Below, in pieces: positions 1 to 21,192 of a stretch of DNA of 22,969 nucleotides (the stretch's first letter is position 1; every line of letters starts with the position of its first letter). The notes beneath the pieces were generated by a model. The model was given only the letters and a program-made list of their open reading frames with translations. It was not told the origin of the DNA and searched no databases. A program made the position numbers and the translations under genes. Origin of the DNA: a virus; IMG/VR virus record IMGVR_UViG_3300029258_000388, positions 1 to 22,969 of that record, one strand, 5' to 3'.

Positions 1-613
1 AAACATCATGCACTTGGTGAACATAGATTCCTGCCCCGGTTCCAGTCTTTTGAATAATGACATTGTCCATAAAGACGTTGGTCATGCGGTCGATGTCGTC
101 CTCAACTGGCGGATAAAACTGGTTGCCGATATAGATAGCACCAAGCGTGAACTTGTAAGGCAAGTTCTCGTTCATGGTGATATTTGTTATGCCGATAGTC
201 TGAAAAGCGTCAACATGCAGATCAATACCTATATTGATGTTCGCCGCAGGAAGTATCACCGGGTTTGCGTCCTCGTCACCCATCAGCTCAAAAAACGGGA
301 TATAGCCGTCTGCTGTTGACCAGCTCAGATATGATCCGAAGTAGTAAGTTCCGGAGTACAGGTAGACCTTGCCGCCCAATGGCAGCAGGCTGGTCATTGC
401 CGCCTTTATTGTCACCTCGTCATCAGTACCGTCACACACATAATTAGCCGCAGCCTTGTCAGCAGCGCTTGAATCGGACGCGGCAACGTAGACGACTGTC
501 ATATCATGATCAACCGCACTCGAGGCAACATACGACAACACAACACGCCCGTCCGGCATCTCCACCATTTCCAGCGGAGGCGCTACGTTTAAGATGTCCT
601 TCAGTCTGTCCAT
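1..613 (-). CDS. Tail spike/fibre, pectate-lyase-like beta-helix, N-terminal part (runs off window)
   Basis: The frame is open from an ATG at 613 to the window edge, giving 204 residues of a longer protein. Residues 61-73 (DGTDDEVTIKAAM) followed by 80-92 (GGKVYLYSGTYYF) form the entry motif of right-handed parallel beta-helix proteins of the pectate-lyase superfamily. In phages these are mostly tail spikes or fibres that bind or cut surface polysaccharide. Residues 1-40 resemble a short particle-attachment region. The start lies 2 nt after the stop of the upstream tail gene and has no strong Shine-Dalgarno site, so translation is probably coupled. Position at the end of the tail module supports a receptor-binding role. 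Any catalytic site would lie outside the window, so lyase or hydrolase activity cannot be judged. Confidence 0.8.
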   Translation of the reverse strand, partial: MDRLKDILNVAPPLEMVEMPDGRVVLSYVASSAVDHDMTVVYVAASDSSAADKAAANYVCDGTDDEVTIKAAMTSLLPLGGKVYLYSGTYYFGSYLSWSTADGYIPFFELMGDEDANPVILPAANINIGIDLHVDAFQTIGITNITMNENLPYKFTLGAIYIGNQFYPPVEDDIDRMTNVFMDNVIIQKTGTGAGIYVHQVHDV

Positions 614-615
614 AG

Positions 616-1437
616 TTACGGCTTGTATTCCGTTATCGGCTTGAAGTCGGCGGTCGGATATACGGTAACAAGATCAGCTTCCGCTCCGCCTGTTGCCTTG
701 TATACCTGTTCGAACTCTTTGGTGTTCGGATTGTAAAACTTGTTCCACCCTTCCTCTTGATACAGCAAATTGTATTCCAGCTCCCAGCTTAGGGTTCCGT
801 CTGCTTTGCGCGTCGGCCTGGTACTCGGTGGATTGAATAGCAGCGTACCTGCAGGAAAGTCACGGTCGTACTGGTCTGAGTGTTCTGTAGCATCGTTCGT
901 CTTTCCGATAAGAGAGAACGTCTCTGCCGGTACGTCCTCGACCTCATGCAGGGTTATCACCCATGCCAGCTGGAGCATTACTTTCTGCGGAGCGCTTACG
1001 TCCTTCAGCTCGGTACTGTCCGACCAATACAGCTCCTCACTGGTAAGTGAGATCATCTTCGCGCGCGGTGTCAGCAGTTCAGTGCGGTATGGCAAGACGG
1101 AATTATCATCTGCATCAACCTGGCTGTTGTACCGAGGCGTTTCGTAGTTAGCCGTGATGATCGCGTATGTATACTTTGCCTTGTTCGTGGTAACGTCTGC
1201 TGAGATGCGCCCCATAGGCTTACTGTTTGCCCGTATACACCGTGCGGCGGAAAAATAGGGATATGTCTCTGTGATGTAGTTGATGAAGCCGATCTTGCCA
1301 CCGATAAGGCGCCGCATGAAGTCCATGCGGTCAGTCCATGCCACCTTGAAGACGCGCGTTGCGCTGAAGCTCTCGGCGGACATTGACTCAGTTGGAGAGC
1401 CGTCCATTTCCTCAAATTCTATCGGCTTGATTGGCAT
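616..1437 (-). CDS. Unknown tail-associated virion protein (273 aa)
   Basis: This 273-residue protein has no domain I recognise. It is soluble, without signal peptide or membrane segment. The second half is rich in aromatic residues and short beta-prone stretches, for example WELEYNLLYQEEGWNKFY near residue 220. It lies between the tape measure, 3 nt after that gene's stop, and the tail spike. Many siphoviruses place the distal tail and hub proteins here, so a tail-tip role is inferred from position only. GGAG inside the end of the tape-measure gene may serve as ribosome binding site. No other distal-tail or hub candidate is present between tape measure and spike. Confidence 0.7.
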   Translation of the reverse strand: MPIKPIEFEEMDGSPTESMSAESFSATRVFKVAWTDRMDFMRRLIGGKIGFINYITETYPYFSAARCIRANSKPMGRISADVTTNKAKYTYAIITANYETPRYNSQVDADDNSVLPYRTELLTPRAKMISLTSEELYWSDSTELKDVSAPQKVMLQLAWVITLHEVEDVPAETFSLIGKTNDATEHSDQYDRDFPAGTLLFNPPSTRPTRKADGTLSWELEYNLLYQEEGWNKFYNPNTKEFEQVYKATGGAEADLVTVYPTADFKPITEYKP

Positions 1438-5594: not shown

Positions 5595-6128
5595 CTATAT
5601 TCTTTCCTGTGCCTGTCGTCCGAGCTTCGCTATTGCTCGTTTAACGTCGTTCTGCATTGCCCGGATGGTCTGCATGTCCGGTTCCACGAAGATCGTTCTT
5701 TTCGGCAAATTGCCTTTGCCTTCGTCATTCCATTCTGCAATGTTGCCGTATGTTGCCCGACTCGCGCCCTTTGCCCGTGGGTGTCTGACATTCGACCGGT
5801 AGCCGACCCGGACGCCGTTTCGAATAAACTTGAACAGGTTGCCTTGGTATCCGCGCTGCAGGCCTTTTATCAGAAAGCCCTGGTCTATAAGTGGCGTCGG
5901 CTTGCCGAGTCCTTTGCCCTTCTTGCGTTGCTTCAGCGTTGACTTTGCCAACCGAGGCCAGCCACCGCGAGCCATCTTGTTATAACGCCGCGTGGTAAAA
6001 GCAAGATACCGGGAGCCCCACTGCCTGAGCATGTCCTGCGCAGGACCGGCAACGCCGTTTGCAATTTCCTTATTCAGCTCGCGCTTGAAATAAGTCAGCG
6101 GCTTAAAACTGATCTTTACCTTGCCCAT
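5595..6128 (-). CDS. Tail completion / virion morphogenesis protein (Mu gpG / P2 gpS-like, 177 aa)
   Basis: A very basic protein with the arrangement typical of the phage virion morphogenesis family. It has an N-terminal helix, then GGWPRLAKSTLKQRKKGKG around residues 55-73, LIDQGFLIKGL (about 80-90) and a late NLPKRTIFVEPD segment corresponding to the family's P-R-x-F/P element. These proteins complete the tail's head-proximal end or the head-tail joint. It starts 1 nt after the last gene of the glycan block and resumes the ordinary structural order, so it marks the downstream edge of the insertion. Confidence 0.75.
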   Translation of the reverse strand: MGKVKISFKPLTYFKRELNKEIANGVAGPAQDMLRQWGSRYLAFTTRRYNKMARGGWPRLAKSTLKQRKKGKGLGKPTPLIDQGFLIKGLQRGYQGNLFKFIRNGVRVGYRSNVRHPRAKGASRATYGNIAEWNDEGKGNLPKRTIFVEPDMQTIRAMQNDVKRAIAKLGRQAQERI

Positions 6129-6129
6129 G

Positions 6130-6648
6130 TTATGACGTTATCCTGTGTACCGGTATTCCGATTTCAGCTACGATGGCATCCCATGTTGCACGTTCACGCT
6201 GCCATCTGTCCTCGTGTCGTGATGTCCCGGTCTCGTTTCTGCAGTCATTATCTCCGGACATATCAACGCCAAATGCCGTTGCTTCGTCAATTTCCAAGTG
6301 CTTCAGCAATGCCAGCGCGGCCGGTCCGCTGTAGTTGTTCCAGCCCGGTGTTTTCAGCGGCAGCTGCTCGTGGAATACCGCTTCGTATTCCGTGAACTTG
6401 TCCCGGTATACATCCGGATGGTGTACCGCCAGCTTGCCCGGTACAACCTGCTTTGTGAACAGCGTCGGACGGCCGAGCGGTGTTACCTGCTGGAACATCG
6501 ACCAGTCACAGAAGCACCAATAGTCTGCAATGAACATCTCAGCCGCCTTGTTCACGCAGATCACGACGCTGTTTTTCACGTCGTCCTGTATGCCGCGGAA
6601 CAGCTTTGCGGATGGTCCATTGCTGATTATGTATGCGTGTTTATTCAA
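6130..6648 (-). CDS. DUF115/GT42-like nucleotide-sugar enzyme, putative (172 aa)
   Basis: The protein opens with HAYIISNGPSAK, a Rossmann-like strand-loop with the N-G-P-S motif found in DUF115-type and GT42 sialyltransferase-like proteins. CVNKAAEMF follows at about residue 31, and SGPAALALLKHLEIDEATAFGVDMSGD later. This order (GPS loop, N-x-A, C-terminal SG-A-AL plus G-D) is seen in small phage and capsule glycosyltransferases. Substrate is unknown. The start is TTG at 6648, overlapping the preceding TGA as TTGA with GGAG about 8 nt upstream; no better start exists because the next Met is far inside. It is shorter than cellular relatives and may be a minimal catalytic domain. Confidence 0.6.
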   Translation of the reverse strand: MNKHAYIISNGPSAKLFRGIQDDVKNSVVICVNKAAEMFIADYWCFCDWSMFQQVTPLGRPTLFTKQVVPGKLAVHHPDVYRDKFTEYEAVFHEQLPLKTPGWNNYSGPAALALLKHLEIDEATAFGVDMSGDNDCRNETGTSRHEDRWQRERATWDAIVAEIGIPVHRITS

Positions 6649-8921
6649 TCCTCACGCTCCAGTAACAGGTTCTCGAATGATCGAAACGCACATCGGAATC
6701 CGATGCTTTTTGCATAGTCCACAAACAGCTTTTCTTCCTCGCCCTGGTGCTCTATGCAGATAACCTTGACGCCCCAGGCATCGACCGGCAACGCATGAAG
6801 CAGCGCCAGGTTCTCGCCTTCAACGTCGATATTCACAAACTCAAAGCTGCCGGGAAACGCTTCCTGTATCTCGGACAGACTGACGGTCGTGATGTAATAC
6901 TTCCGATAGCCTGCCTTCTCCGGACTTGTCTCGCTCCGATGCTCGTTAGTGGTACTGAGCCTGTGGTTGTCATGTTCCCAGAACGGCGCAATACCGATGC
7001 CTTCGACGGTCACAGCCGCATGCAATAGGTCGACTTTCGGAAACGTCTGCATATTCTTTTTCAGCAGCAGGAATGCTGCCGGTGACGGTTCGACCATTAC
7101 ACCCGGCCAGCCATGCCTTGCAAGCGCGTTTGTGGTACTGCCCTTGACGCCGTCATTTGCGCCGATGTCAAGAAACCGGCCGCTGATAACAGTCTCGACA
7201 GCCTGCAGGATCATGTCTGTTTCCTGCTTGTGTACCTCGACCACATTAGCCGGGCGATCATCTGCCGGACGCACTGCTTCAACTTCAGCAGGACCGCGAT
7301 AAATACCCCCGCCCTTGCACTTTTCACAGATGCCCTTTGCATCGAATCCAATGCTCTTTGGTTCGCCTTTTCCCTTGCCGTGGCATCGCGGGCAGGTCAT
7401 CTTGACTTCTGCGCGAACCGGAGCCGGATCTTTGCGACGGATTACGCGTTCCATAGGTGCTTCAGTGACAACGTGCTCGACAGGTCGCAACTCTTCTGCA
7501 TTATCTTCTGGCTGCCTCACCCCGCCGATCTCTATGATCTCCCCGACGTGCTCCCCGTCCCATTCTTCATGTTCAGGGAACGGCTCGTAAGGCCATTTCA
7601 GATCAACGCTGCTGTGCTTAAGCATGCTGTTCTCAATCTTCGGCCAGATGTACTTCCGCAAAAAGCGCTGGTCGTCGGCTAATTCCTGCTTGTTCTTTTG
7701 CGGACACTCTTCCAGCAGCTCGTGTATGTCCTTGATTACACCGCCCTTGATGCCCCACATACCGGCCATAATTGGATAGATGGTATGGTGCCTGTGATCG
7801 TGCATCGAGTGTGCGTCCTTGCCGCTTGCTATCCAGGCATCGACAGCTGCCTTTTCCCGGACGTTCAACCGACTGTCAGCATCGCGAAAGATCGCATATT
7901 CAACATCAGGGCTGGACATTGCGAGGAACCGCCAGAACTGACCGCCGCGGCCTGGAACATTGTACTGCGCGAACATTTCAACGCCCATCTTGCGGAGCGT
8001 ATAGACACACGGCACATTGTAACCGTGATAGACGCGGACTTCCCAGCCTGGATATATCTCCTTTGCCAGCTTGACGTTCTCAATGACGCCCTGGTTGTAC
8101 TTCTTGTCATTGCCGAAAACAGAGAACGATATGATGCGGCGCTTCGGAGGCCGCCTGCCGATCTTTTTCCAGTAGTAATTGACCGAAAGCCGCGGATCGC
8201 TCCAGGCCTTCTTCGGTATCTTGGTCTTCTTCAGCAGGTCTTCTGTAACTTCGTCCCAGTCGTCAACAAACAGGATTGGCAGACCTTCGAAGTGTGCATT
8301 ATCCGGACTCCGCTTGAGGATCGGAATGCTGCCCATCGCGATAGCTTCCCATGTGCGATGGCAGTCTGGACCGGCTCCGGGTGGTGAGAACGTGAATTTG
8401 TGCTTGTGCATGTTGAGGAGGTAGTCCTCGAAAGGTATGTCTTTGACGCCTGCACCACCCTCGGCCGTGATCCAATCTTTATCAGCAAACAGATTATACA
8501 GTATCGGTCTCTCCGCATGTGTCGTCTTCGTGCAACACAGATAAGCAAGACGCTTGGTGTTCTTCTTGACGCGCTTAGACCGCACTCGTTCGATGATTGA
8601 CATGCAACCGTGTATTGTGTGGCTGTTGACCAGGCCGATCGGCACTGCAATCGGTCCGGTAGCCGCGCAGTTCTGAGCAAGCCACTTTTTGACAACCTTC
8701 GGGCGGTTGTCATACATATCCTGTGTGATTACACGATCACTGTTATGTGTGACCAGCGTTATCGATCCCTTGCATTCCCTGCATGCCCGAAAGAAGTTTT
8801 CAACGTACTCCGCCTTAACGTAGACAACAGATCCCGATTTCGGGCAGTCCATCCCTGGACACCATCTGACATCTGCTACGGCACCGATGCGTTCACCCGA
8901 TATGTATTCCGAGATCTTCAC
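6645..8921 (-). CDS. Four-part fusion: exostosin-like GT, second GT-A-like domain, zinc knuckles, FkbM methyltransferase (758 aa)
   Basis: Residues about 120-235 are exostosin/GT47-like: HKHKFTFSPPGAGPDCHRTW at 172-191, then EAIAMGSIPIL and LPILFVDDWDEV. Residues 261-465 form a second glycosyltransferase-like domain with FRDADSR, a DxD metal-site candidate at 347-349. A Pro/Glu-rich linker leads to two CxxCxGxG motifs (C510/C513 and C532/C535), as in DnaJ zinc fingers. Residues 575-758 are an FkbM-type SAM methyltransferase, with FLDIGANDG at 583-591 and FVNIDVEGEN at 695-704. The start is GTG 8921 with AGGA upstream and a 29-nt overlap of the previous gene. The fusion suggests stepwise sugar transfer followed by O-methylation on one polypeptide. 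Domain identities are well supported; substrates are unknown. Confidence 0.85.
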   Translation of the reverse strand: MKISEYISGERIGAVADVRWCPGMDCPKSGSVVYVKAEYVENFFRACRECKGSITLVTHNSDRVITQDMYDNRPKVVKKWLAQNCAATGPIAVPIGLVNSHTIHGCMSIIERVRSKRVKKNTKRLAYLCCTKTTHAERPILYNLFADKDWITAEGGAGVKDIPFEDYLLNMHKHKFTFSPPGAGPDCHRTWEAIAMGSIPILKRSPDNAHFEGLPILFVDDWDEVTEDLLKKTKIPKKAWSDPRLSVNYYWKKIGRRPPKRRIISFSVFGNDKKYNQGVIENVKLAKEIYPGWEVRVYHGYNVPCVYTLRKMGVEMFAQYNVPGRGGQFWRFLAMSSPDVEYAIFRDADSRLNVREKAAVDAWIASGKDAHSMHDHRHHTIYPIMAGMWGIKGGVIKDIHELLEECPQKNKQELADDQRFLRKYIWPKIENSMLKHSSVDLKWPYEPFPEHEEWDGEHVGEIIEIGGVRQPEDNAEELRPVEHVVTEAPMERVIRRKDPAPVRAEVKMTCPRCHGKGKGEPKSIGFDAKGICEKCKGGGIYRGPAEVEAVRPADDRPANVVEVHKQETDMILQAVETVISGRFLDIGANDGVKGSTTNALARHGWPGVMVEPSPAAFLLLKKNMQTFPKVDLLHAAVTVEGIGIAPFWEHDNHRLSTTNEHRSETSPEKAGYRKYYITTVSLSEIQEAFPGSFEFVNIDVEGENLALLHALPVDAWGVKVICIEHQGEEEKLFVDYAKSIGFRCAFRSFENLLLERED

Positions 8922-9693
8922 AGTAATAGTTCCTATATTCGTCGAGCATAGTTAAGTATTCGGGCATACAGTCCCGAATGAGAGCTTTGACAGTCGGCCA
9001 TGCCTCATCTGTGTAGGCCGGGCGCGGTGTGTGTGCATCAATCAGGCCGGTACGGTCGCTTCGCCAGTAGCTGCGGTCATAGCGGCCGTATGGTCCCATT
9101 GCGTTCTTCTGTTCGCGCTTCAGGAAGCAGCAGCGATCCGGGTAGCCGTCCCAGGTTTTCAGTACTTCCTTGAATATCAGTTCATCTGAAAAGTTGCCGT
9201 TTGGCTCCTCCCCGAACTCCGCGTATTCGTCCAGAAATCTGTGAACTGTCGCGTGCGGTATTACATCGTTCCAGACACTGGCAGGCGCGCCGATATGACA
9301 CAGCGGATAGCGCGGTTCCCACTGAGTGCCGTCGTAGGCGTTCGAATACCACATTGTCATGTCTGCGCTTTCGTCGTACTGATCCATATATTCCTTGCTC
9401 AACATCAACATGTCGGCATCGCCGGTTATCAGCACATCGTCATCATATGCGTTCTGGTGTGCGAAGAACCGAATGCACTTGCTGGTGTAGTGCTCCGGAT
9501 AGCACGGGTCGGCATCCATGAAAAGCACTCTAGCGCCGATGTCATAAAGAACGCTTACCGTAATGCGCGGAACGTCACCGATCAGATAGGCTATAACGCC
9601 ATATCCGAGGTGTGCCCAGCTTGCCGCCGTTATCGGTATCGGAAAGCTGTAATCCGGCTTTGCGTCGCAACTTATGACTGCGTATCTGTTCAT
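8893..9693 (-). CDS. Glycosyltransferase-like protein, paralogue B (266 aa)
   Basis: The N-terminal half has a GT-A-like order: AVISCDAK near the start, RVLFMDADPCYP at 55-66 and DVLITGDADMLML at 86-98. The last has a D-x-D motif that could bind a metal-nucleotide sugar. The C-terminal half contains WDGYPDRCCF and ends with LDEYRNYYCEDL. It is homologous to the 288-residue protein at 10837-11703, which shows the same motifs in the same order. It starts at ATG 9693 overlapping the sulfotransferase stop (ATGA). Donor and acceptor are unknown. Glycosyltransferase assignment rests on the DxD element, fold order and neighbours. Confidence 0.65.
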   Translation of the reverse strand: MNRYAVISCDAKPDYSFPIPITAASWAHLGYGVIAYLIGDVPRITVSVLYDIGARVLFMDADPCYPEHYTSKCIRFFAHQNAYDDDVLITGDADMLMLSKEYMDQYDESADMTMWYSNAYDGTQWEPRYPLCHIGAPASVWNDVIPHATVHRFLDEYAEFGEEPNGNFSDELIFKEVLKTWDGYPDRCCFLKREQKNAMGPYGRYDRSYWRSDRTGLIDAHTPRPAYTDEAWPTVKALIRDCMPEYLTMLDEYRNYYCEDLGIHIG

Positions 9694-10334
9694 CGTGTTT
9701 TGTCAAGCCTGTATTTGTGCTCGATCAGCGGGTAGCTGCCGAAAAGTACTCGGTTCAATTTGTGTAGAATAACAGGATCTGCGTCCTGCCAGTATCCGAC
9801 ATGCCCTTCCTGCGGACTCCAGCCGACAAGGCTGTCCGGACGCTTGATTTCAGCATGCTTACGCTTTAGGTCAAACTGTTCTTCGATTCGTTCCATTGTG
9901 CCGGTGAAGTTATTGCACAGATCTTCATAGCGGACAGTCGGCACTCCGATATAGCTGGTCACATGATCACGCCAACGGCAGATACGATCAGCACCCATAA
10001 AGTCGATCAGCTCCGTCTCGCGTTTTTTCTCGTTCTTGTGATCCCAGAAACGCCAGAGACTGTACAGGCAGTCGTAGGGGTGCCGGACGATGTACAGGAT
10101 ATTCTTGAATGGAATATTCTTGCGACATGCCGCGCTCAGTGGTCCGTGGGCACCGAACAGGTTACACCACGGAATGCAGGCTGTCTCTTCGCCGGTCTCA
10201 TGCCACTTCTGGCCTGGAACCTTGATATTCCCAGCTTGATTGCCGACCTCGAAGTTCTCGTATATCGAAGCGAGCATAAAGTGAGTTCCGCTTCTGCGGT
10301 GAGAACAAACACGAATTGGTGCCGGATCTGACAT
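9690..10334 (-). CDS. PAPS-dependent sulfotransferase (214 aa)
   Basis: Sulfotransferases move sulfate from PAPS to hydroxyl or amino groups, usually on sugars or Tyr. Three family signatures are visible in order. The 5'-phosphosulfate loop is RRSGTHFM at 13-20. The 3'-phosphate site IVRHPYDCLYS at 82-92 shows the classic R-x7-S spacing (R84, S92). VRYEDL is at 134-139 and EGHVGYW, a GxxGxW-type element, at 176-182. The start chosen is ATG 10334, overlapping the preceding TAA as TAATG; a TTG 30 nt further upstream is in frame but less likely. No PAPS-making gene is in the window, so the host must supply it. A soluble cytoplasmic enzyme is expected. Confidence 0.85.
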   Translation of the reverse strand: MSDPAPIRVCSHRRSGTHFMLASIYENFEVGNQAGNIKVPGQKWHETGEETACIPWCNLFGAHGPLSAACRKNIPFKNILYIVRHPYDCLYSLWRFWDHKNEKKRETELIDFMGADRICRWRDHVTSYIGVPTVRYEDLCNNFTGTMERIEEQFDLKRKHAEIKRPDSLVGWSPQEGHVGYWQDADPVILHKLNRVLFGSYPLIEHKYRLDKTR

Positions 10335-10837
10335 TATTCTTTCCATGCCTTGTGATTGCTGCAAACGTAAGTATGCGGCCAGTAATCGGTGTATTTGTAA
10401 ACATGCTTGTACATCTTCAGACCGGCGCCAAGTTTGTAATGTTCAACGCCCCCGGCATCGTGGATAACCACCCAGACAGGATAATCAACACATGCGAAGT
10501 CCTCGAGGTTGTTGTGTCGCTGGTCGCCATTGCCGTGGTCTATGAATGCTACCCCCCAGGGTTGCTGGTTTTCGAATCCCTGCGATGGCCAATCATTATG
10601 GCCGATTAGTCGGAACTCATGCCAGCATGTCACCAGGTGAGTGAATTTTGCCATCCAGGCACCATCAGATTCTACTGTAACAAGCATTCTCTCCGTCGGC
10701 CGACATATCTCATGAAGCATCGGTGTACTACCGTCACCGCAGCCAAGCTCCAGCACCGGCCCGGTACTATTGGCAACAACTGCCGACAGTATCGGGAAGT
10801 GGCTCAAATATGATGGATAGCGTTTGTTTTCGGTCAT
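10334..10837 (-). CDS. Class I SAM-dependent methyltransferase (167 aa)
   Basis: Motif I, VLELGCGDGSTPML (28-41), is a clear glycine-rich SAM loop. TVESD (54-58) holds the acidic residue expected at the end of strand 2. GVAFIDHGNGDQRHNNLE (95-112) corresponds to the motif IV/V region, and VVIHDAGG (123-130) follows. The protein is compact, about the size of one Rossmann domain, so target recognition must be built into loops. It lies between two glycosyltransferase-type genes and the sulfotransferase with TAATG junctions on both sides. That suggests methylation of the same glycan or of a sugar precursor; a protein target cannot be excluded. Confidence 0.75.
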   Translation of the reverse strand: MTENKRYPSYLSHFPILSAVVANSTGPVLELGCGDGSTPMLHEICRPTERMLVTVESDGAWMAKFTHLVTCWHEFRLIGHNDWPSQGFENQQPWGVAFIDHGNGDQRHNNLEDFACVDYPVWVVIHDAGGVEHYKLGAGLKMYKHVYKYTDYWPHTYVCSNHKAWKE

Positions 10838-11703
10838 TATACGGTATCCTTCATGTCTCTAAGGATCTGCAAACAGTCGTCCCGGTAGTTATCCAGGCGC
10901 TTCTTAACGTCGCTCGGCACTCTTGGAGAATGCTGCATCAGCAATTCCCAGTGCATATTCTGCCGCCAGTCGTTCCGGATATGGCAGTCAACCGGGTCTG
11001 CAGGCGTCCAGCGTTGACGCAGATACAGGCGACGCCCGTATTCGGTCGGCTTGCCCTTACGCTTGCCTTGATAGCAATACCGCGGATAACCGTGCCATTG
11101 TGAAAGCATGGCGTGTAGCCCCGGCTCACAGTTCCATTGTCCTCTGTAATGCTCAAGAGCGTACTGTTTGGTCTGGTTCATGTGGTCACATGTTGCCTTT
11201 GCCAGGTCGTCGCTGGCAGGTTTCATGATCTCGCGCCAGATGCCGGACGTTGCGCCCTGGTAGCAACTCGGCCACCGTGGGAACTCGCGTTCGTCCTCAT
11301 GGAACATATCAACGCCCCAGCAGTGGAATGACATAGTAGGCTCCGGAATAAGGTAATCGTCGTGAAGCAGCAGCATGTCACCATCACCAAGCATGATATA
11401 GCTGTGCGGATCGAACCACATTGAAGCGGCAAGCCTCCGGCTCCCCGTAATGCAGTGAAAGCGCTTGTTGTTCGACCAGGCCGGAACATCGAACAGTTCA
11501 ATCTCCTTGATTATCGGGTCGGTCTTCTTTATCTCCTCAAGCGCACGCTGTGCAAGCGGCTGATCCCATAAATCCATAGGTCCGAACTGCATGATAAACG
11601 GCCGAAAGCCTGCCCACTGCCATAGTATCGCGGACATTCCGCATGGCACATAATAGCGATACTGTGCGGGATCTACTGCAAGTAATGCGTACATTGTGCT
11701 CAT
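10837..11703 (-). CDS. Glycosyltransferase-like protein, paralogue A (288 aa)
   Basis: This protein shares the plan of the 266-residue protein at 8893-9693. A D-x-D segment, MLGDGDMLLLHDDYL (104-118), is followed by FPRWPSCYQGATSGIW (141-156), WHGYPRYCYQ (203-212) and a final LDNYRDDCLQILRD. The corresponding elements in the paralogue are ITGDADMLML, EPRYPLCHIGAPASVW, WDGYPDRCCF and LDEYRNYYCEDL. A GT-A-type transferase of unknown specificity is the likeliest reading. The start ATG 11703 overlaps the previous TGA (ATGA) with GGAG about 10 nt upstream. Two diverged copies in one cluster suggest two related but distinct sugar-transfer steps. Confidence 0.65.
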   Translation of the reverse strand: MSTMYALLAVDPAQYRYYVPCGMSAILWQWAGFRPFIMQFGPMDLWDQPLAQRALEEIKKTDPIIKEIELFDVPAWSNNKRFHCITGSRRLAASMWFDPHSYIMLGDGDMLLLHDDYLIPEPTMSFHCWGVDMFHEDEREFPRWPSCYQGATSGIWREIMKPASDDLAKATCDHMNQTKQYALEHYRGQWNCEPGLHAMLSQWHGYPRYCYQGKRKGKPTEYGRRLYLRQRWTPADPVDCHIRNDWRQNMHWELLMQHSPRVPSDVKKRLDNYRDDCLQILRDMKDTV

Positions 11704-12365
11704 AGTGGCTCGCTCCCCGGAAAGCCCGATGCCTTCCTTGCCTGGAACAAGTCTCTATCGTGAATACGGAAATCCTGCGCGTGTCCAAGGTGTGCCCACG
11801 GCTTGCGCTCTTCCTGCGGCAGTCGCGTCCAGTGTGCATGGAACTGGGAAACATCCGGTCGATCCCAGTAGATGCCGAGATTGCGCGCAACAGCACACAG
11901 CTCAGTATCCGGACAGAAGTGGCCATAGCCTTCAAAGAACGGACCATTACCTCCGTACCCGCGCCGTATCCACTCTCGCCCCATCCACGGCGACACAGCA
12001 GCCTGTCCGTTACCACAGAAGCCGTCACCGACCGGTTGCATAATCCCGAACGTATCCGGGAAGTGTTCCAGGAACTCGGCTTCAAGTTCCTGCGCTGTCT
12101 TGTCCTCTGCCGGATAGATGTCATCGCCACCCGTGATAACTGCGGTCATTTTGGGATCGCTGATGTAGATGTACCGGCATAGAGCATTGTTTTCGATTGC
12201 CCAGCTGCGGAAGGTGCCGGTATAAACATAATCAGCATCATCGAACGGCACCGGTGCGCCTTCGTCAAGCATCAAGGCTATCCTGTAGCCCTGTGCTTTC
12301 CAGCGCGGCAGTGTCTTTTGTGCCATTGGAAAGTTTGCTGATGGTATTGCGAACCACACACTCAT
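11700..12365 (-). CDS. Putative glycosyltransferase, GT-A-like (221 aa)
   Basis: The sequence begins with a strand and loop (WFAIPSANFPMAQKTLPRW) like the donor-binding start of small GT-A enzymes. It carries AVITGGDDIYP (75-85), an acidic D-D pair at the position of the usual DxD. A later FFEGYGHFCPDTELCAVARN segment (143-162) resembles the acceptor-side G-x-x-x-ED/D-E element of GT2-like enzymes. The protein ends about where the catalytic domain would, with no membrane segment. It starts at ATG 12365, overlapping the previous TAA by one base (TAATG). Substrate is unknown, and the family assignment is moderate. Confidence 0.6.
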   Translation of the reverse strand: MSVWFAIPSANFPMAQKTLPRWKAQGYRIALMLDEGAPVPFDDADYVYTGTFRSWAIENNALCRYIYISDPKMTAVITGGDDIYPAEDKTAQELEAEFLEHFPDTFGIMQPVGDGFCGNGQAAVSPWMGREWIRRGYGGNGPFFEGYGHFCPDTELCAVARNLGIYWDRPDVSQFHAHWTRLPQEERKPWAHLGHAQDFRIHDRDLFQARKASGFPGSEPL

Positions 12366-12979
12366 TATGCTACCAGCCCCGGCTTTTTGTAGCGGCGACT
12401 TGCCTGCGTCTGAATGATCCTCGGTTGACGCCTGCCATAGTGCCGCTCTGATAAATCTGGTGTTCTATTCGGATCTCCGGCATCGATCCAGTTGTATTCC
12501 GGCGGGAGACGCAGGACATTCAAGCCATGCGGTTCCAGGCGTTCCACAACTTTCTGCAGGTTCTTCTGATCCCATACGTCGGGATACTGTTCGTTTTCGT
12601 CTATCCATTCGTGAATGATCCGCTGTGTCCAGCCTAAGCTGTCGTTCTTGAAATACAGGCATGCTGAAATCAACTCCCGATCCCGGAACCAGTGCGCGGC
12701 AAAGTCGGCGTCGGCACTTTCCAGCAAATCCAAGCGTCCGGCTATGCGTGCATCAGCATCAAGGTACACTATCGGGAATCCGGCATACATCATCGATGCC
12801 AGCAGAATGAACTGAGCCTTCGCCTGCGTGTTCCGCTGCCAGCTTCCATGATCGCCGACAACTTTGAAGAACGGTTTGTAGCCATATTTACGGCAACTGT
12901 CACCGAGCTCCACCAGTTCATTCAAGTACGGCGACTTGTCAGTTGCATACGCTATTATCTGGAAGTTATCGTTTATCAT
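12365..12979 (-). CDS. Glycosyltransferase, nucleotide-diphospho-sugar transferase type (204 aa)
   Basis: Residues 66-80 (AGFPIVYLDADARIA) contain the DAD motif (74-76) of GT-A enzymes, preceded by a helix that scans the donor site (AKAQFILLASMM). YNWIDAG near 162 matches a late conserved loop. WDQKNLQ (136-142) is the D-Q element typical of this transferase group. The frame extends upstream to 13141, but the true start is taken as ATG 12979 because it overlaps the gp36-like gene's TGA as ATGA and the extra N-terminal residues have no coding character. This is the first gene of the modification block in transcription order. Soluble; substrate unknown. Confidence 0.75.
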   Translation of the reverse strand: MINDNFQIIAYATDKSPYLNELVELGDSCRKYGYKPFFKVVGDHGSWQRNTQAKAQFILLASMMYAGFPIVYLDADARIAGRLDLLESADADFAAHWFRDRELISACLYFKNDSLGWTQRIIHEWIDENEQYPDVWDQKNLQKVVERLEPHGLNVLRLPPEYNWIDAGDPNRTPDLSERHYGRRQPRIIQTQASRRYKKPGLVA

Positions 12980-13380
12980 TGTATCACTATCGGCGCCGTC
13001 GGCATTGTCTCTGCCCTGGTAGCGCCAAGCCTTGCCCTGCCGCTGAAGTATTCCCGGATCTCGGCATCTGCCCTGTCTGCAAGATCCTGCATACGCTCGT
13101 TCACGCTGGTATCCTGCAGTCCACGACTGAAATACAACCACGCCCCGGCGTAGACAAGCATCAGGTCTTTAACCGGCCGCAGATCGGCTTCAGTGCCTTC
13201 AAATGGGACAGTATACGGACCGAGCCGGAACTTGTCGCGCACTTTGGCCTGTCCAATGGCAAGCGCCTCGGCTATCCGGTCTGTGTCAGCACTCCCGGTG
13301 TTCTCAAGGTCGCTCCACACTGTGACATTCGAAGTACCGAACCGCTTCTCAAGATCTGCCTGTGTGATTGTTATTGCCAT
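12976..13380 (-). CDS. Head completion / connector protein, Mu gp36-like (134 aa)
   Basis: An N-terminal ITQADLEKRFG helix, a following stretch of charged helices, and DLMLVYAGAWLYFSRG in the middle match the DUF1320 (Mu gp36-like) group. These proteins sit with head-tail joining genes. Its position directly after the major capsid gene agrees. The ribosome binding site is weak, unlike most genes here, and a terminator-like hairpin lies just upstream, so expression may be tuned below that of the capsid protein. Its last codons overlap the first glycosyltransferase by 4 nt, making it the upstream border of the inserted block. Confidence 0.7.
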   Translation of the reverse strand: MAITITQADLEKRFGTSNVTVWSDLENTGSADTDRIAEALAIGQAKVRDKFRLGPYTVPFEGTEADLRPVKDLMLVYAGAWLYFSRGLQDTSVNERMQDLADRADAEIREYFSGRARLGATRAETMPTAPIVIQ

Positions 13381-13456: not shown

Positions 13457-13475
13457 GCCTGCACATTATGCAGGC
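13457..13475 (-). repeat. Perfect 7-bp hairpin between capsid and gp36-like genes
   Basis: The arms GCCTGCA and TGCAGGC (13457-13463 and 13469-13475) enclose a 5-nt loop. Just before it in transcription order, GGGGG-UUUU-CCUCC (13491-13478) can form a short tetraloop stem. Together with the larger terminator-like hairpin, the 117 nt after the capsid stop codon carry three consecutive hairpins. mRNA protection or attenuation is the likely purpose. Confidence 0.55.
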
Positions 13476-13500
13476 TCGGAGGAAAACCCCCGCAAAGATC

Positions 13501-14583
13501 CTACCATTTCACCTTTGCGATAAACACCGCATTCGGAACTTTGATGATAGGCAGGAACGTATCACCGGCCAGTTGCTTGATGCTGGGCGGATCGGTCTTG
13601 ACTTCAGCATAACTGAACATGCCGGGAACATTCCGCAGTGTTGCGAGCACGTCCAGGGCGTTGCCGCCAAGAACCATATTGCTCGGGATTGCGTATGTGC
13701 CTTCGATCACTTCCCACCATTCGGGTGAAGGATCGGGAGTGAAGATGACAGTATCATCGTCGGCAAGGTCTTGATTGGTGCCGTCGGCGTCCTCGAAAAA
13801 GGACTCATAAATCGGGCGCCATTTCATGCCCATCAGGCCATCCGGAATCTCGTTGTTCATGAGAACAGCGTTCTGCATTGCAGGATTCCGGTTGATGATT
13901 TCCTTCATCTTGTCGTTGCCGGTGAAGTACGACAGGATGTTTGCGCCGTAGAACGCATACATCGGACGGTAGCCGGTGAGCTTCCTTGCATACTTCTTGA
14001 GGTTCGTGATCTGCAGCGGGATGTCAGTTCCGGCAACGCTCCATTTTGCACTGATGATGCCGCCGATCTGGTCGCGGTTGCCCGCAGGAATACCAGCATC
14101 GACAGTTGTAACAGCACTGGAGCTGCTCGGAAGCATGTTGCCATCACCGTCAAAGAAGATCTTGCCCTGTGCAATCATGCTCATGGTCGAAGCCATGCGC
14201 AGATTCATGAACAGCCGCTTGAACTCAGCGGTCTGCCGGGCAACTTCATCTTCGCCGAGGCGCTGTTCCGCATCCATTGCGCTGCGCAGATTCTGGAGAA
14301 CCCATGCCTCGAAGACCTGGTGCTCGAATGTGTGCATCAGAGTGATCGGCACCTCGGAGATGCCGGTCTGTTCACGCCTTACTGACGCAGATCCGTACTG
14401 AACCAGCCGAGCCACCTTGCGGGTGTTGTCGACTTTGCGGTACTTCGTTGTGTTGCCGGTGACGGTGCGGTTGACCCGCATGAACTCGGGCGGAATCACG
14501 TCATCCGGAACGCCGCCTTTGATGCCGTTCACAAGGCTGGTCAAGGCGACTGACCCGAGGATTTGTTCGAGTGTCTTAGCCAT
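13501..14583 (-). CDS. Major capsid protein, lambda gpE family (360 aa)
   Basis: This is the HK97-fold shell subunit. The 360-residue length, VNRTVTGNTTKYRKVDN near residue 37, the long helix HTFEHQVFEAWVLQNLRSAM (about 84-103) and the tail segment FLPIIKVPNAVFIAKVKW fit the phage major capsid protein E family. It is preceded by one of the strongest ribosome sites in the window (GAGGAGCAACGAAAA-ATG). It follows a putative decoration gene and the protease/scaffold gene, the expected order. This is notable because the upstream portal, F and protease genes are Mu-like, whereas Mu itself uses a different capsid family. The gene ends in TAG and is followed by hairpins rather than by a coupled gene. 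Confidence 0.9.
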   Translation of the reverse strand: MAKTLEQILGSVALTSLVNGIKGGVPDDVIPPEFMRVNRTVTGNTTKYRKVDNTRKVARLVQYGSASVRREQTGISEVPITLMHTFEHQVFEAWVLQNLRSAMDAEQRLGEDEVARQTAEFKRLFMNLRMASTMSMIAQGKIFFDGDGNMLPSSSSAVTTVDAGIPAGNRDQIGGIISAKWSVAGTDIPLQITNLKKYARKLTGYRPMYAFYGANILSYFTGNDKMKEIINRNPAMQNAVLMNNEIPDGLMGMKWRPIYESFFEDADGTNQDLADDDTVIFTPDPSPEWWEVIEGTYAIPSNMVLGGNALDVLATLRNVPGMFSYAEVKTDPPSIKQLAGDTFLPIIKVPNAVFIAKVKW

Positions 14584-14646
14584 TTTTCGTTGCTCCTCAA
14601 TTTCAATCTGGAGTTTCTATCGTCCTGCTTCATTCAACGGGTCGAC

Positions 14647-15351
14647 TTAAAAGTCGTCGTCGAACGTCCAGGAACCTCCGTTAGTCCTCAGTTGTGCTTT
14701 GATCCATGCCTGTATGCTTGTATCGCTGCTGTAATTGATGATCTGACTTGCGTCCACGTTACCGGCAATAACCGGCTGCGCAAACTGGGTGTCGATGCTG
14801 GTGTCGTCAGCGTCGGTCACTTTCAGACCATAGCCGTCGTTGATAAGACACAGCGGAGCTTCGCTGCCGTCTTCGGGACGAATCAGCGAGCCGACCACGT
14901 AGTCAGCGGCTGCAGTTGTAACGGTGATGACTCCGGTAGTCGTGTTGACTGCCGAGTATGTTACCTGTTCGGTTGCCACTGTACCGGCTGCCGTGGGCGG
15001 TCCGGCAATGCCGAATGTGCCACTCGAACCGATACGCCGGACAAGTTCAGTTGCGGTTGCAGCGCTGACAGTCATCTGCGTAGCAAGCGAGCCGTCCTTG
15101 TCATACGCAACGGTAAGCGCGCCGATAACGCTCGGAGCATACTTGCCGCTTGCAGTTATCTTACCCATCAGAAGACCCGCCCTGAGCACATCGACATCGC
15201 CGGTGTTGCCAGGATCGCGAGACTTTGAGCCGTCAATGATCTCGCCGCCCGGAATCAGCATCAATCCGGCATCGGTGTTCATCACCTTGCGCGGAGTAGC
15301 TGTACGCTCCGTCTGCGGACCAGGAAGAGCATTTCCATAGTCTGTTGCCAT
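14647..15351 (-). CDS. Putative head decoration protein (234 aa)
   Basis: The protein is beta-prone and rich in Thr, Ser, Ala and Gly, with an inner Thr-rich segment (VNTTTGVITVTTAAADYVVG, about 135-155). It also has a HDP-like YGNALPGPQTERTATPRKV start. Position between scaffold/protease and major capsid protein, size above lambda gpD and composition all fit a head decoration or capsid-stabilising protein. No catalytic motif is seen. The strong GAGGAG site implies high expression. Its exposed Thr/Ser content makes it a reasonable candidate acceptor for the downstream glycosylation genes, although nothing in the sequence proves that. Confidence 0.6.
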   Translation of the reverse strand: MATDYGNALPGPQTERTATPRKVMNTDAGLMLIPGGEIIDGSKSRDPGNTGDVDVLRAGLLMGKITASGKYAPSVIGALTVAYDKDGSLATQMTVSAATATELVRRIGSSGTFGIAGPPTAAGTVATEQVTYSAVNTTTGVITVTTAAADYVVGSLIRPEDGSEAPLCLINDGYGLKVTDADDTSIDTQFAQPVIAGNVDASQIINYSSDTSIQAWIKAQLRTNGGSWTFDDDF

Positions 15352-17600: not shown

Positions 17601-18956
17601 TTAATTGCCTTCGTCTACCTCTTCGCCTGGTTCCATCGGCCTGTTTCGGACAACAGTGACTTCATCTTCGCGCTCTTCGACCGGCAGACCTACACGTTCA
17701 ATTACCTGCTGCATGTCGATTGCCTCAAGCGCAAGGTCGATGTTTACCGGGTTGCCGTACAGGCTCTTGACCAGATCCCGCATAAAAAGCAACAGCAGCG
17801 GATCGATACCGGCAAGGACTATCTTTACGTCTCGCGCCTTGTCCGGTCCGTAGTTGATAGCTACCAGCGGCTCGACCAGTCCCTGGTTGATATGCCGGAA
17901 TATCTCTTCTGTGAGCATCTGCCCGACAAGGTAAGACCACTGTGACTGTGTCTCGGATTCGGCCTTCGTGCCGTGCTGGCCTTCGAGCGCCGCCCGTTCC
18001 GGCTGAAGCCATCCGCGCATCATCAGCTTATCCCAGTATGACAGGCCGTCAACAAAGTCCTTGCCGTGTGCCGCCTTGGCTTCGAGAAAGCTGATATTCC
18101 ACGCCTTCATGCTGTCCTTGCCTGCACCACCGAGGCGTGCCAGGTCTTCGACGTACTTTGCCAACGTATTCGGCATTGCAACGCCGTTAACCGCCGACAG
18201 ATTCTGCAGTATCGCCTGGGCAAGTTTGAAGTTCGAGACCTCCTGCCCGTTTGCATCCAGGCCGGTTCCTTCGGGATATTCAATTATCGGCGTGGCTCCG
18301 GCAACCTTCTTGCCGTACTTCGAGTATCGCTTAGCCTGTTCTTGCCAGCTGTGCCATGCCGTTTCCCGGATATTCTCATGCCTGCTGCGACCGTACAGGT
18401 TCCCGGCCTCGCCGTCGTATGTGTACAGGAAGCAGTATTCCGGTGTGAGTACGACATTGCCTTTTGACTGCTTCAGCCCTGCAAACTCGCCGGTCTTCTC
18501 GGTCACTAGGATCTGTGTCTTGTCGACCAGCAGCGGCTTGATCTTCCTGTAGTGTATTTTTCCATCGGAGCCGACTTCGTAGACCTTCTCAAATGGTGCG
18601 AACCCGTAGTCAAACGCATAGAGCATGTCGTCCAGCAGTTCAGCCCAGAGACGTGTGAACTCTTCGTCGATGAAGTCGGCAATCTCTTTATCCGCTTCGT
18701 CAGCTTCCACTGACCAGTTCGCAGACTGGATCGGTGCCCGCGCCATCACCCTGGCAAGCGCCACCGTCGGATTGCTGCGCATTTCGCGATACGTCTTGTA
18801 CGTTCCGGGTGATGGTTTCGGAAGGTCGCCATCCTGGTTCTGAAGGATTGCAAGGCCTCCTGCTGCGGAGTTTGGCGGGATCTGCTGGCCGGTGCGTTCA
18901 GTGGTCTTGATTGTGGAATCGCGGCGGAACAGTCGGGTTAGTAGGTTGTCGGCCAT
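17601..18956 (-). CDS. Portal protein, DUF935 / Mu gp29-like (451 aa)
   Basis: The portal forms the dodecameric DNA entry ring. Length is normal for the DUF935 family. Visible landmarks are MRSNPTVALARVMARAPI near residue 60, DMLYAFDYGFAPFEKVYE (about 109-126) and NLYGRSRHENIRETAWHSW (about 185-203). SQWSYLVGQMLTEEIFRHIN lies near 340, the portal's long-helix region. The C-terminal tail is acidic (EREDEVTVVRNRPMEPGEEV). The upstream spacing has only a short GGGG element, so initiation may depend on the structured leader that precedes it. It is the first gene of the head module. Confidence 0.88.
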   Translation of the reverse strand: MADNLLTRLFRRDSTIKTTERTGQQIPPNSAAGGLAILQNQDGDLPKPSPGTYKTYREMRSNPTVALARVMARAPIQSANWSVEADEADKEIADFIDEEFTRLWAELLDDMLYAFDYGFAPFEKVYEVGSDGKIHYRKIKPLLVDKTQILVTEKTGEFAGLKQSKGNVVLTPEYCFLYTYDGEAGNLYGRSRHENIRETAWHSWQEQAKRYSKYGKKVAGATPIIEYPEGTGLDANGQEVSNFKLAQAILQNLSAVNGVAMPNTLAKYVEDLARLGGAGKDSMKAWNISFLEAKAAHGKDFVDGLSYWDKLMMRGWLQPERAALEGQHGTKAESETQSQWSYLVGQMLTEEIFRHINQGLVEPLVAINYGPDKARDVKIVLAGIDPLLLLFMRDLVKSLYGNPVNIDLALEAIDMQQVIERVGLPVEEREDEVTVVRNRPMEPGEEVDEGN

Positions 18957-19171
18957 TCTTTGCCCCTATAGTGGCGCATCAAAAAGTGTTCCGAGCAATA
19001 AAAAAAGGCCGGTCGAGGTGTCGGCCCCGACAGACCTTGTGACTTTTTACATCAGCGGTGAATAGCTAGTTCACTGCCTATTGCTCGGTTTTACTTACAA
19101 ATACACGCCTTTTTATTGTCCGTCAAACGAAAGTGTGCAAAAATTGTATGCCATAGGCATAGGATGGACAG
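18957..19171 (-). other. Non-coding structured leader before the portal gene
   Basis: No coding frame of note is present. In the minus-strand RNA, 19088-19079 pairs perfectly over 10 bp with 19000-18991. Inside this are GUGAA/UUCAC around UAGCUA, a UGUCGG-GG-CCGACA hairpin (19032-19019), and a GGCCG...CGGCC stem followed by U7. Near its upstream end TATGCC-TAT-GGCATA (19161-19147), followed by ACAATTTTT, is a weak terminator candidate. TTGACG-17-TATTTG around 19126-19098 is a poor promoter candidate. No tRNA could be folded from it. Confidence 0.6.
19000..19032 (-). terminator. Rho-independent terminator-like element with competing hairpin
   Basis: GGCCG (19026-19022) can pair with CGGCC (19011-19007), followed directly by seven U. 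The same GGCCGACA segment can instead join the upstream UGUCGG, dissolving the terminator stem. The U tract itself is complementary to an upstream AAAAAGGC at 19115-19108. This gives several mutually exclusive folds at one site. Confidence 0.6.
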
Positions 19172-19363
19172 TTAGAACCATCTTTGTAAACACTTCGGCA
19201 ATGCGTCCTTTATTGCTTCCAGCAGATCATCAATAGCAACTGCCACTTCGGCTCGCCGATGGCTCCACGTTCCTTTGCAATGTTTCCGAATCTTGTCATC
19301 TGGAATATAGTCTGGCAGCCGGTACAGCCAGCGAATCTTATCAAGTACCTTCGCGTTCATCAT
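19172..19363 (-). CDS. Unknown small basic protein (63 aa)
   Basis: MMNAKVLDKIRWLYRLP begins a short, basic, helical protein that ends CLQRWF; no family is recognised. The start is placed at ATG 19363 because GGAGGA (19373-19368) precedes it; a second ATG directly follows and could be used instead. The longer TTG-started frame overlaps the previous gene and lacks a ribosome site. It is the last of three small genes between large terminase and portal, and a structured non-coding region follows it. Confidence 0.6.
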   Translation of the reverse strand: MMNAKVLDKIRWLYRLPDYIPDDKIRKHCKGTWSHRRAEVAVAIDDLLEAIKDALPKCLQRWF

Positions 19364-19377
19364 TTTTCCTCCGATTG

Positions 19378-19560
19378 CTAAGATTCCCAAAAATGACAGT
19401 CCTTAAATTCTATATAGTCGCATACTGCATCAACTAACCGATCCCAACGGCCAAGTCCTTTCTTGCCACCTATCACCCAGAATGAAAGCCATATCAGCGG
19501 AACGCAAACCGTCACTGGAATAATAAGCAGGCAGAACGCTATCCGGCACATCATTTTCAT
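19378..19560 (-). CDS. Small membrane protein (60 aa)
   Basis: MKMMCRIAFCLLIIPVTVCV and PLIWLSFWVIGGKK form one long or two short hydrophobic segments (about residues 5-31). A basic turn and a soluble tail ending CHFWES follow. Start ATG 19560 lies 1 nt after the preceding stop (TAATATG) with GGA upstream; the longer frame to 19626 lies inside the preceding gene. A holin, lysis accessory or host-membrane effector are all possible, and no motif selects among them. No endolysin gene lies in the window to support a lysis role. Confidence 0.6.
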   Translation of the reverse strand: MKMMCRIAFCLLIIPVTVCVPLIWLSFWVIGGKKGLGRWDRLVDAVCDYIEFKDCHFWES

Positions 19561-19561
19561 A

Positions 19562-19795
19562 TTAGTATTTCCAGTCTTCGCTATTATCTCGCGACGCTTC
19601 GTTATTATTTGTCGTTGGATTCGCACACTCCTGCAAAAGACATTTAATCGCTGCGAAGTCCCTTGCTGATGGTATATGATTTGAAATTACTGGATTCCCG
19701 GCATCATCAAAGCCCACCAGTAGGTGACACTCCAGATACTCGCCGATATAATTTCCAAGGCCGTCTATTTTTTCTTGTGGCAGAGATTCAGGCAT
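19562..19795 (-). CDS. Unknown small acidic protein (77 aa)
   Basis: The soluble acidic protein starts MPESLPQEKIDGLGNYIGEY and ends in a polar, probably disordered tail (NPTTNNNEASRDNSEDWKY). Start ATG 19795 is set by GGAGGA at 19807-19802; a GTG immediately before is less likely. It follows the large terminase stop by 14 nt. No family is recognised and no function is proposed. Confidence 0.6.
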   Translation of the reverse strand: MPESLPQEKIDGLGNYIGEYLECHLLVGFDDAGNPVISNHIPSARDFAAIKCLLQECANPTTNNNEASRDNSEDWKY

Positions 19796-19809
19796 CACAT
19801 TTCCTCCGA

Positions 19810-21192
19810 TTAGTTCACCACCACACTCATTCGCCCCGTCGGCTTGTCGTCGAACCTGCGGATCGGCCGCAGATAGTGTATCCTGTATCCCTCGGCCTCG
19901 CTGGCGTGGGACATGCTTTCCTCGTGCTTGTCCGGCTGTCCAGAATCATCGTACCGCATACCCTTGAGATCTGCAATCAGCCGAACACAGCTCGGATGTA
20001 TCTTCCAGTGAATGTTGCTGCGCACGTCCAGTAGCGCCATGTTGACTGAGTTGATCCTGTCCTGTACAAATGGATTGCGACCTGGAACACGCACCCGGAA
20101 CGGGATTCCAGCCGCATCAAGAGCCTCGGCAAGTATCTGGTAGCACGTCTCGCCTGTTCCAGCCCAAGCGCTCCCGCCGGTTGCATCACCGTATACCTGC
20201 AGCGGATCTGCCCACTTCCAGCCGCCGAACTCCTCAATCAGCCTGACCAGCCGGACAACGGTATTCTGTACGTCAAGGCGCTTCTCGTGTATTTCGTGAA
20301 CGGTTGTGAATAGATCCTGCTGCTGATTATAGTGCCCAAGCAGTGCGTGCATGCCGGGATTGATGTTGAAGTCAAGAGCCAGGTGAAGCGGCAGTGCATA
20401 GGTGAGCTTCAGTGTATCGTCAAGATGTCGCTCTGCATCGAACGCCGAATACAGCTGTCTACCGCGCAGACTGATCGCGCCGCCCTCGAGGTATTGTTCC
20501 TGCAGTTCCGGTGACAGCATTTCCCGTTGACGCTCCAGGAACTCGGCAGCATGCGGATTTTCTTTTGTTGCCGCCCTGTAGAGTGCATGCGTTGACAGGC
20601 CGCGCCGGAACTCCTGGTATACTCGCGTTGCATCGCCCTCGTTGGTATATGTCAGCATCAACTGGCAGAAGTACGCTTCCGGGTGCCGGACTCTGGCGGT
20701 CAACTGCAAATATGGATCTTTGCTCGGATCATAGTTGTCAACCTTCCATCTCGCGGCTTCGTCCCCCCAGGCCGCCCCAACCTGCCAGCCGGTTATGCGC
20801 TCCGGCTTGTCTGCTGTGCGCACAATGATCTTGCTCGGTGAGTTCTGGGTGCCGAGATCCGGAAAGATGAACTCGCTTGCCGCTCCCTTGTACTCGCAGG
20901 ATAGACCGATCTCCCTGGCGGCGTCTTTTATGGCAGGAAGGCAGAAATCATTCGCATTGCTGTAGGTCGGCGCAACGATCGCGCTCCAGATATACGTTGG
21001 CTCACCGCTGTCCCGAAACGCATTATCAATGTGCAGCGTCAGCAACTTGCGCGCTGCTGACCAGCTTTTGCCGCTTGACCAGCCTCCCTCCAGTCCGATG
21101 CACCAGTGTTCCCAGTCGGCAAGGAATGCTTCCTGTCCTCCGGGATTCCCGTGCCAGATAATTTCGTCTGTTACTTCTACTTCGCGGGGCAT
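19810..21192 (-). CDS. terL: Large terminase subunit (460 aa)
   Basis: The enzyme packages DNA into proheads through an ATPase and a nuclease. Walker A GGWSSGKS is at 36-43, with APTYSNANDF as the following adenine/coupling region. Walker B AAWGDEA has D144 and E145. The RNase H-like nuclease shows LALDFN with D274 and VYGDATGG with D336, and a late SHASEAEG with E432 in place of the usual third aspartate. Length is normal. The initiator ATG 21192 has only a weak upstream site and overlaps the 38-codon gene before it by 16 nt, suggesting coupled translation. Followed by three small genes and then the portal rather than by the portal directly. Confidence 0.93.
   Translation of the reverse strand: MPREVEVTDEIIWHGNPGGQEAFLADWEHWCIGLEGGWSSGKSWSAARKLLTLHIDNAFRDSGEPTYIWSAIVAPTYSNANDFCLPAIKDAAREIGLSCEYKGAASEFIFPDLGTQNSPSKIIVRTADKPERITGWQVGAAWGDEAARWKVDNYDPSKDPYLQLTARVRHPEAYFCQLMLTYTNEGDATRVYQEFRRGLSTHALYRAATKENPHAAEFLERQREMLSPELQEQYLEGGAISLRGRQLYSAFDAERHLDDTLKLTYALPLHLALDFNINPGMHALLGHYNQQQDLFTTVHEIHEKRLDVQNTVVRLVRLIEEFGGWKWADPLQVYGDATGGSAWAGTGETCYQILAEALDAAGIPFRVRVPGRNPFVQDRINSVNMALLDVRSNIHWKIHPSCVRLIADLKGMRYDDSGQPDKHEESMSHASEAEGYRIHYLRPIRRFDDKPTGRMSVVVN

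Follow-up and report, generated by a model that had tools for sequence, protein, structure and literature searches.

Why would a phage keep eight genes that resemble glycan-modifying enzymes between a head-tail connector gene and a tail completion gene? We addressed this question in a 22,969-base linear virus record, an incomplete genome referred to here in its whole length as the window. Its minus strand carries, in order, genes for a radical-SAM protein (22126-22932, upstream of the terminase genes), the small and large terminase, a Mu-type portal (PF06074), a gpF-like protein, a protease/scaffold, a decoration-like protein, the capsid (Phage_cap_E, phrog_29) and a gp36-like protein, then the cassette, and then a gpG/Neck1-like gene (phrog_222), tail genes with a major-tail match (phrog_1407) and the tape measure. 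The gp36-like gene, which is kept in relatives, scores 21.8 bits with Phage_Mu_Gp36, below the cut-off of 24.7; phrog_195, which it also matches, is a head-tail adaptor family. The capsid and most of the cassette proteins have no relatives among 50,697 sequenced phages, the exceptions being c7, some of whose domains have relatives there, and c1, with a single relative in an uncultured phage of 462 kb.

Gene coupling in the cassette

The cassette consists of eight minus-strand ORFs, c1 to c8, which fill positions 12979 to 6130 between the gp36-like and gpG-like genes with no gap larger than 1 nt (Table 1). In order, the junctions are ATGA, TAATG, ATGA, TAATG, TAATG, ATGA, a 29-nt overlap between c6 and c7, and TTGA, followed by a 1-nt gap from c8 to gpG. 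As distances these are -4, -1, -4, -1, -31, -4, -29 and -4, the value of -31 being that for c5 read from its TTG. The fifth junction presupposes that c5 starts at its ATG, and this start is the more likely one because it yields the same TAATG junction that occurs elsewhere in the cassette. The first-pass annotation of this DNA had described eight coupled genes lying exactly between gp36-like and gpG-like genes, which the ORF junctions and two further contigs (L002 and L003, below) bear out; the junction types and the single long overlap that it listed are likewise correct.

A promoter consensus scan returned a single weak minus-strand site (13238-13210), inside gp36. Overall, promoter-like sites are fewer than in shuffled sequences, while the number of weak terminator-like stems is close to that of the shuffles. 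Judging from the gene coupling, the cassette would be co-transcribed with the structural genes. No cassette protein contains a strong membrane segment (highest 19-residue hydropathy, KD19, 1.64). An assembly chimera is ruled out by L002 and L003, and a recent foreign insertion is unsupported by composition, as the GC and GC3 of c1-c8 match those of the neighbouring genes.

Table 1. Coordinates of the cassette genes, their flanking genes and the small ORF at the corresponding site of two relatives.
Feature	Position	Strand	Basis or remark
gp36-like head-tail connector, left site border	12976..13380	-	PF07030 Phage_Mu_Gp36 E 2.3e-4; phrog_195 E 4e-4
c1, GT-A-like glycosyltransferase, DAD motif, 204 aa	12365..12979	-	homologues
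c2, GT2-like glycosyltransferase, 221 aa	11700..12365	-	profile comparison
c3, putative GT-A-like transferase, GDGDM motif	10837..11703	-	c6 paralogue
c4, class-I methyltransferase-like protein, 167 aa	10334..10837	-	motif ELGCGDGS
c5, sulfotransferase (by family)	9690..10334	-	Pfam above cut-offs; ATG 10334 preferred over TTG 10364
c6, putative GT-A-like transferase, GDADM motif	8893..9693	-	c3 paralogue
c7, 758-aa fusion	6645..8921	-	four domains
c7 domain 1, GT47/GT114-like	residues about 55-254		A075L-type crystal structures E 1.5e-27, about 200 residues
c7 domain 2, GT-like	residues about 265-450		matches GT-annotated domain of large (jumbo) phages and S-SRM01
c7 zinc ribbon	residues about 507-540
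c7 FkbM methyltransferase	residues about 583-730		Methyltransf_21 PF05050 42.7 (cut-off 22.7)
c8, possibly MptE/sialyltransferase-like, 172 aa, gpG-side border gene	6130..6648	-	homologues; weak fold signals
gpG/Neck1-like tail completion gene, right site border	5595..6128	-	phrog_222 E 2.4e-6; conserved
Zinc-ribbon ORF of relatives, about 60 aa	L004:9288-9470; L005 about 9079-9259		between gp36 and gpG

Predicted activities of the cassette proteins

By family, c5 is a PAPS-type sulfotransferase: it scores 32.4 bits with PF00685 (cut-off 22) and 28.3 bits with PF13469 (cut-off 27), and the 5'-PSB and 3'-PSB loops for PAPS (RRSGTHF and YIVRHPYDCLYS) are present in its translation. Transfer of the sulfate to a glycan is predicted. 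The fusion protein c7 additionally matches RXYLT1_C (31.4 bits, cut-off 27) and the fkbM_fam model TIGR01444 (44.1 against a cut-off of 37.7). Its N-terminus is homologous to the chlorovirus protein A075L (GT114), a beta-xylosyltransferase that assembles the core glycan of the capsid protein of PBCV-1 (PMC11571054).

Three further proteins have supported, predicted assignments. The putative glycosyltransferase c1 belongs to a family spanning 23 viral contigs; L030 and L066 have a homologue in the equivalent position, and about 20 further viral contigs also encode one. PF03407 matches it at E 0.07 only, and the homologous domain in L112 reaches 21.2 bits against a cut-off of 22. Relatives of c1 also occur as single genes far from head genes in T4-like, PhoH-encoding, cyanophage-like contigs (L099, L102, L103, L106 and L107), so the c1 family extends beyond virion modification. 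For c2 there is no direct family match, and its profile aligns with that of GT2 proteins of phages (PF00535 member in L112) over 184 columns at an hhalign E-value of 1.1e-6, consistent with a glycosyltransferase. A Pfam search with c4 returned no match, and its sole internal evidence is the class-I methyltransferase motif; its family is conserved in L141, L143, L160 and L162, beside glycosyltransferase (GT32) and methyltransferase (TylF/Methyltransf_24) genes, which points to a methyltransferase-like family. Several of the enzyme assignments in the cassette are motif-based only.

The remaining three, c3, c6 and c8, are tentatively regarded as glycan enzymes. Family model searches gave no match for c3 or c6, which are paralogues at 26% identity with a common GDxDM motif; the structure prediction for c6 failed (pLDDT 34) because it has too few relatives. 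At best, c8 may tentatively be called MptE/sialyltransferase-like. Homologues of c8 adjoin gpG in L035 and L039/L088 and occur in the head-tail block of L110, and its other signals are weak: PF01973 at E 0.05, PDB matches all above 1e-3, weak matches to viral MptE-like proteins and a weak structure model. The c8 profile has no significant match to the MptE-like proteins of L067, L068 and L039, and where the MptE-like profile hits repeat proteins in the PDB, the matches are artefacts.

The first-pass annotation had counted five glycosyltransferases, one methyltransferase, one sulfotransferase and one 758-residue fusion. Glycan-modification enzymes are indeed present, as are the sulfotransferase c5 and the fusion c7, the latter combining a pair of GT-like domains with a zinc ribbon and an FkbM domain, and methylation and sulfation enzymes do occur together. 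The exact count holds less well: c1, c2 and c4 are supported, while c3, c6 and c8 stay tentative.

Maintenance and turnover at the gp36-gpG site

Contig L002 is 100% identical to the window from the head genes into c7. L003, which comes from another metagenome, repeats the order of gp36 and c1-c5, with protein identities of 77-95%. Between the window and L003, dN/dS is 0.094 for c1, 0.070 for c2, 0.16 for c3, 0.075 for c4 and 0.136 for c5, alongside 0.04-0.10 for head genes. Hence c1-c5 are under purifying selection, and values of 0.07-0.16 mark them as real genes.

Relatives with the same flanking genes and no insert, which the first-pass annotation had suggested looking for, do exist. In the nearest cousins L004 and L005 (capsid identity 65-70%), gp36 and gpG are both present and a zinc-ribbon ORF alone lies between them. 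Searched against the window's proteins, this linker ribbon matches the c7 ribbon with 36% identity over 52 aa (E 5e-5), which suggests that an ancestral zinc-ribbon linker gene may have been absorbed into c7, although zinc ribbons are common. In the decoration-like protein of L004 (5940-7685), L005 and L022, residue 150 is followed by an insert, some 200-350 residues long, with no counterpart in the window's protein; the L004 insert looks internally repetitive. A link between cassette and decoration-protein insert is unsupported, as L025 and L029 have neither.

Across the phage group, a terminase alignment gave 61 viral loci, and local profiles of the capsid, gp36, gpG and two tail genes were used to place the site. 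Glycan genes occupy it in seven lineages (window/L003, L031/L035, L039/L088, L067, L068/L072, L030 and L066), with both borders present only in the window, L035 and L039, while in about 17 lineages (18 rows) it is empty or holds one small ORF. Given that most members of the group lack the cassette, it is dispensable. Every filled site seen contains glycosyltransferase, methyltransferase or sulfotransferase genes, and c1- and c8-type genes recur. In L031/L035 (IMGVR_UViG_3300035698_006057), two GT-A-like (c1-like) genes lie on the gp36 side and a c8 homologue lies towards gpG, at which the site ends. The site and the kinds of enzyme are thus those of the window, whereas most of the genes are non-homologous to the window's: a GT9-like gene, a Methyltransf_11 gene and two other sulfotransferase-like proteins, one at 25.5 bits against a cut-off of 27 and a second, weaker one. 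L039/L088 carries an MptE-like gene, a fusion of MptE-like, GT32 and Methyltransf_24 parts, and a c8 homologue overlapping gpG; in L030 and L066 a c1-like gene directly follows gp36 before the contig ends. In L055/L056 gpG is relocated and the next connector gene directly follows gp36. Separately, L055 encodes a 657-aa protein between capsid and gp36 (18199-20172), the C-terminus of which is g5057-like (phrog_22694) by eye; g5057 relatives in L006 and L007 were excluded for their different gene order.

Five changes are required to explain the filled-site trait on the capsid tree, and the AU test rejects a topology that unites all cassette carriers in one clade (p 1.8e-7). The trait therefore comes and goes, although tree counts cannot tell gain from loss. 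Glycan genes in a separate region of close relatives would have spoken against the first-pass annotation; the opposite is found, as relatives within the phage group keep them at the same site. The arrangement is less unusual than it had supposed, since it recurs at this site in these seven lineages and also at head-tail junctions of unrelated uncultured phages. In one of the latter, L110 (phrog_15 terminase, phrog_4523 capsid-protease), c1-like and c8-like genes lie between decoration and neck/tail-terminator genes. Between the decoration and major tail genes of L141 lie a GT32 gene, a homologue of c4 and a gene whose product shows a sulfotransferase-like P-loop but has no Pfam match. Behind the capsid gene of L112, one ORF fuses sialyltransferase-like and c1-like domains and is followed by GT2, rhamnosyltransferase-like and FkbM genes; this fusion, together with gene neighbourhood, ties c1 to c8-like proteins. 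L116 has an analogous gene set, with a weak sulfotransferase match (21 bits against 27).

Possible targets of the glycan enzymes

We consider it probable, at roughly 0.6, that the cassette is expressed together with the late structural genes and serves as a virion-glycan module. Drawing nucleotide sugars from the host, soluble glycosyltransferases (c1, c2 and c7, probably also c3, c6 and c8) would assemble a short chain in the cytosol on one of the head or tail proteins; methylation of the chain would fall to c4 and to the FkbM domain of c7, and c5 would sulfate it with host PAPS. A common late message would balance the supply of enzymes with that of virion proteins, and the glycan may alter the particle's sticking or recognition. 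The turnover of site content from lineage to lineage would fit a surface trait under diversifying selection. Points that weigh against this reading are the dispensability of the cassette within the group, the c1 relatives away from head genes, the motif-based nature of several enzyme assignments and the incomplete genome.

The absence of membrane proteins, the late-gene setting and the recurrence at the head-tail junction favour a virion protein over the host surface or DNA as the target. Enzymes that change the infected cell's own glycan, for example blocking re-adsorption of progeny or superinfection, are an unlikely alternative: serotype conversion of hosts by phage-borne glycosyltransferases is known, surface polysaccharides are substrates of sulfotransferases and methyltransferases, and single c1-like genes are found outside head operons. 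However, the cassette has no flippase, polymerase, membrane-anchored GtrA/GtrB-like protein or Gtr family match, it is coupled to late virion genes, its position at the head-tail junction is constant in several lineages, and no integrase was seen among the genes read in a 30-kb contig of the same phage. Decoration of modified bases in the phage's DNA against restriction has precedents, in the DNA-linked glycans made by viral glycosyltransferases (Pyle et al. 2024, as cited in a passage of PMC12619734) and in phage nucleotide glycosylation and sulfation systems mentioned in an estuary-virus study (PMC10829341). We give it little credence here, given that no thymidylate-synthase/hydroxymethylase family gene occurs in the window, the 30-kb contig or six relatives (all fragments), that no cassette protein matches a DNA glycosyltransferase family, and that the cassette sits in the structural block. 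A gp36-gpG gap that merely tolerates passing genes without common function would account for the very different contents among lineages and for the many empty sites, yet it is already disfavoured and barely probable: the content is non-random, with glycan-type enzymes in every filled case and c1- and c8-type genes recurring, and the dN/dS values and tight translational coupling also argue against it.

A virion-glycan module would be of a known kind. In Corndog-type (Cluster O) mycobacteriophages, gp35-gp38 are an O-methyltransferase and glycosyltransferases in the structural operon, proposed as capsid modifiers (PMC4351075). Both arrangements place glycosyltransferase and methyltransferase genes among virion structural genes, although the Corndog genes lie between portal and protease and the cassette at the connector/tail junction, and PMC4351075 names no sulfotransferase, unlike the cassette with c5. 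The cassette genes have no match in mycobacteriophages (tblastn, 50,697 phage records). For the mycobacteriophages Che8 and Rita, phage glycosyltransferases have been tied to the glycosylation of major capsid (and tail tube) proteins (Freeman 2023, as cited in passages of PMC11256854 and PMC12619734); there virion glycosylation is experimental, whereas here it is deduced from genes, and those passages leave sulfation, for which the cassette has c5, unmentioned. Chlorovirus A064R, in which two rhamnosyltransferases are joined to a methyltransferase (PMC9614988), parallels the GT-GT-methyltransferase layout of c7, although chloroviruses are eukaryotic viruses, the methyltransferase of c7 is FkbM-type and the other cassette genes are unrelated as far as compared. 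What would be new relative to modules such as those of Corndog and Che8 is the sulfation enzyme and the recurrent exchange site. In the literature searched, mainly open-access, viral sulfotransferases appear as auxiliary genes or in connection with the modification of nucleotides or proteins. We know of no sulfated phage virion described before.

If the virion reading is true, particles would be coated with methylated, negatively charged sugars that vary with the content of an exchangeable genome site, with a bearing on phage diffusion, adhesion to polysaccharide-rich Planctomycetota and to particles, and escape from recognition. Many viral 'auxiliary' glycosyl- and sulfotransferase genes would then decorate virions rather than serve host metabolism, and the empty-site relatives would be natural controls. 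More speculatively, and with the odds against it, uncultured tailed phages (here probably of Planctomycetota) might commonly wear lineage-specific methylated and sulfated glycans through interchangeable cassettes at a fixed head-tail hotspot, which would be a widespread parallel among phages to the glycosylation of chlorovirus capsids.

A first genome scan with the TerL alignment gave no match. Related terminases are found in four genome contigs (L083-L086), all four of them Planctomycetota metagenome bins (Phycisphaerae, Humisphaera). Since related terminases among genomes occur only in such bins, Planctomycetota are the likely host of the phage group, although binning errors are possible. 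A contig of the same phage (L012, IMGVR_UViG_3300017989_000326) also covers an early region, where a ParB-like/DNA-methyltransferase-like fusion gene lies at 13462-15231.
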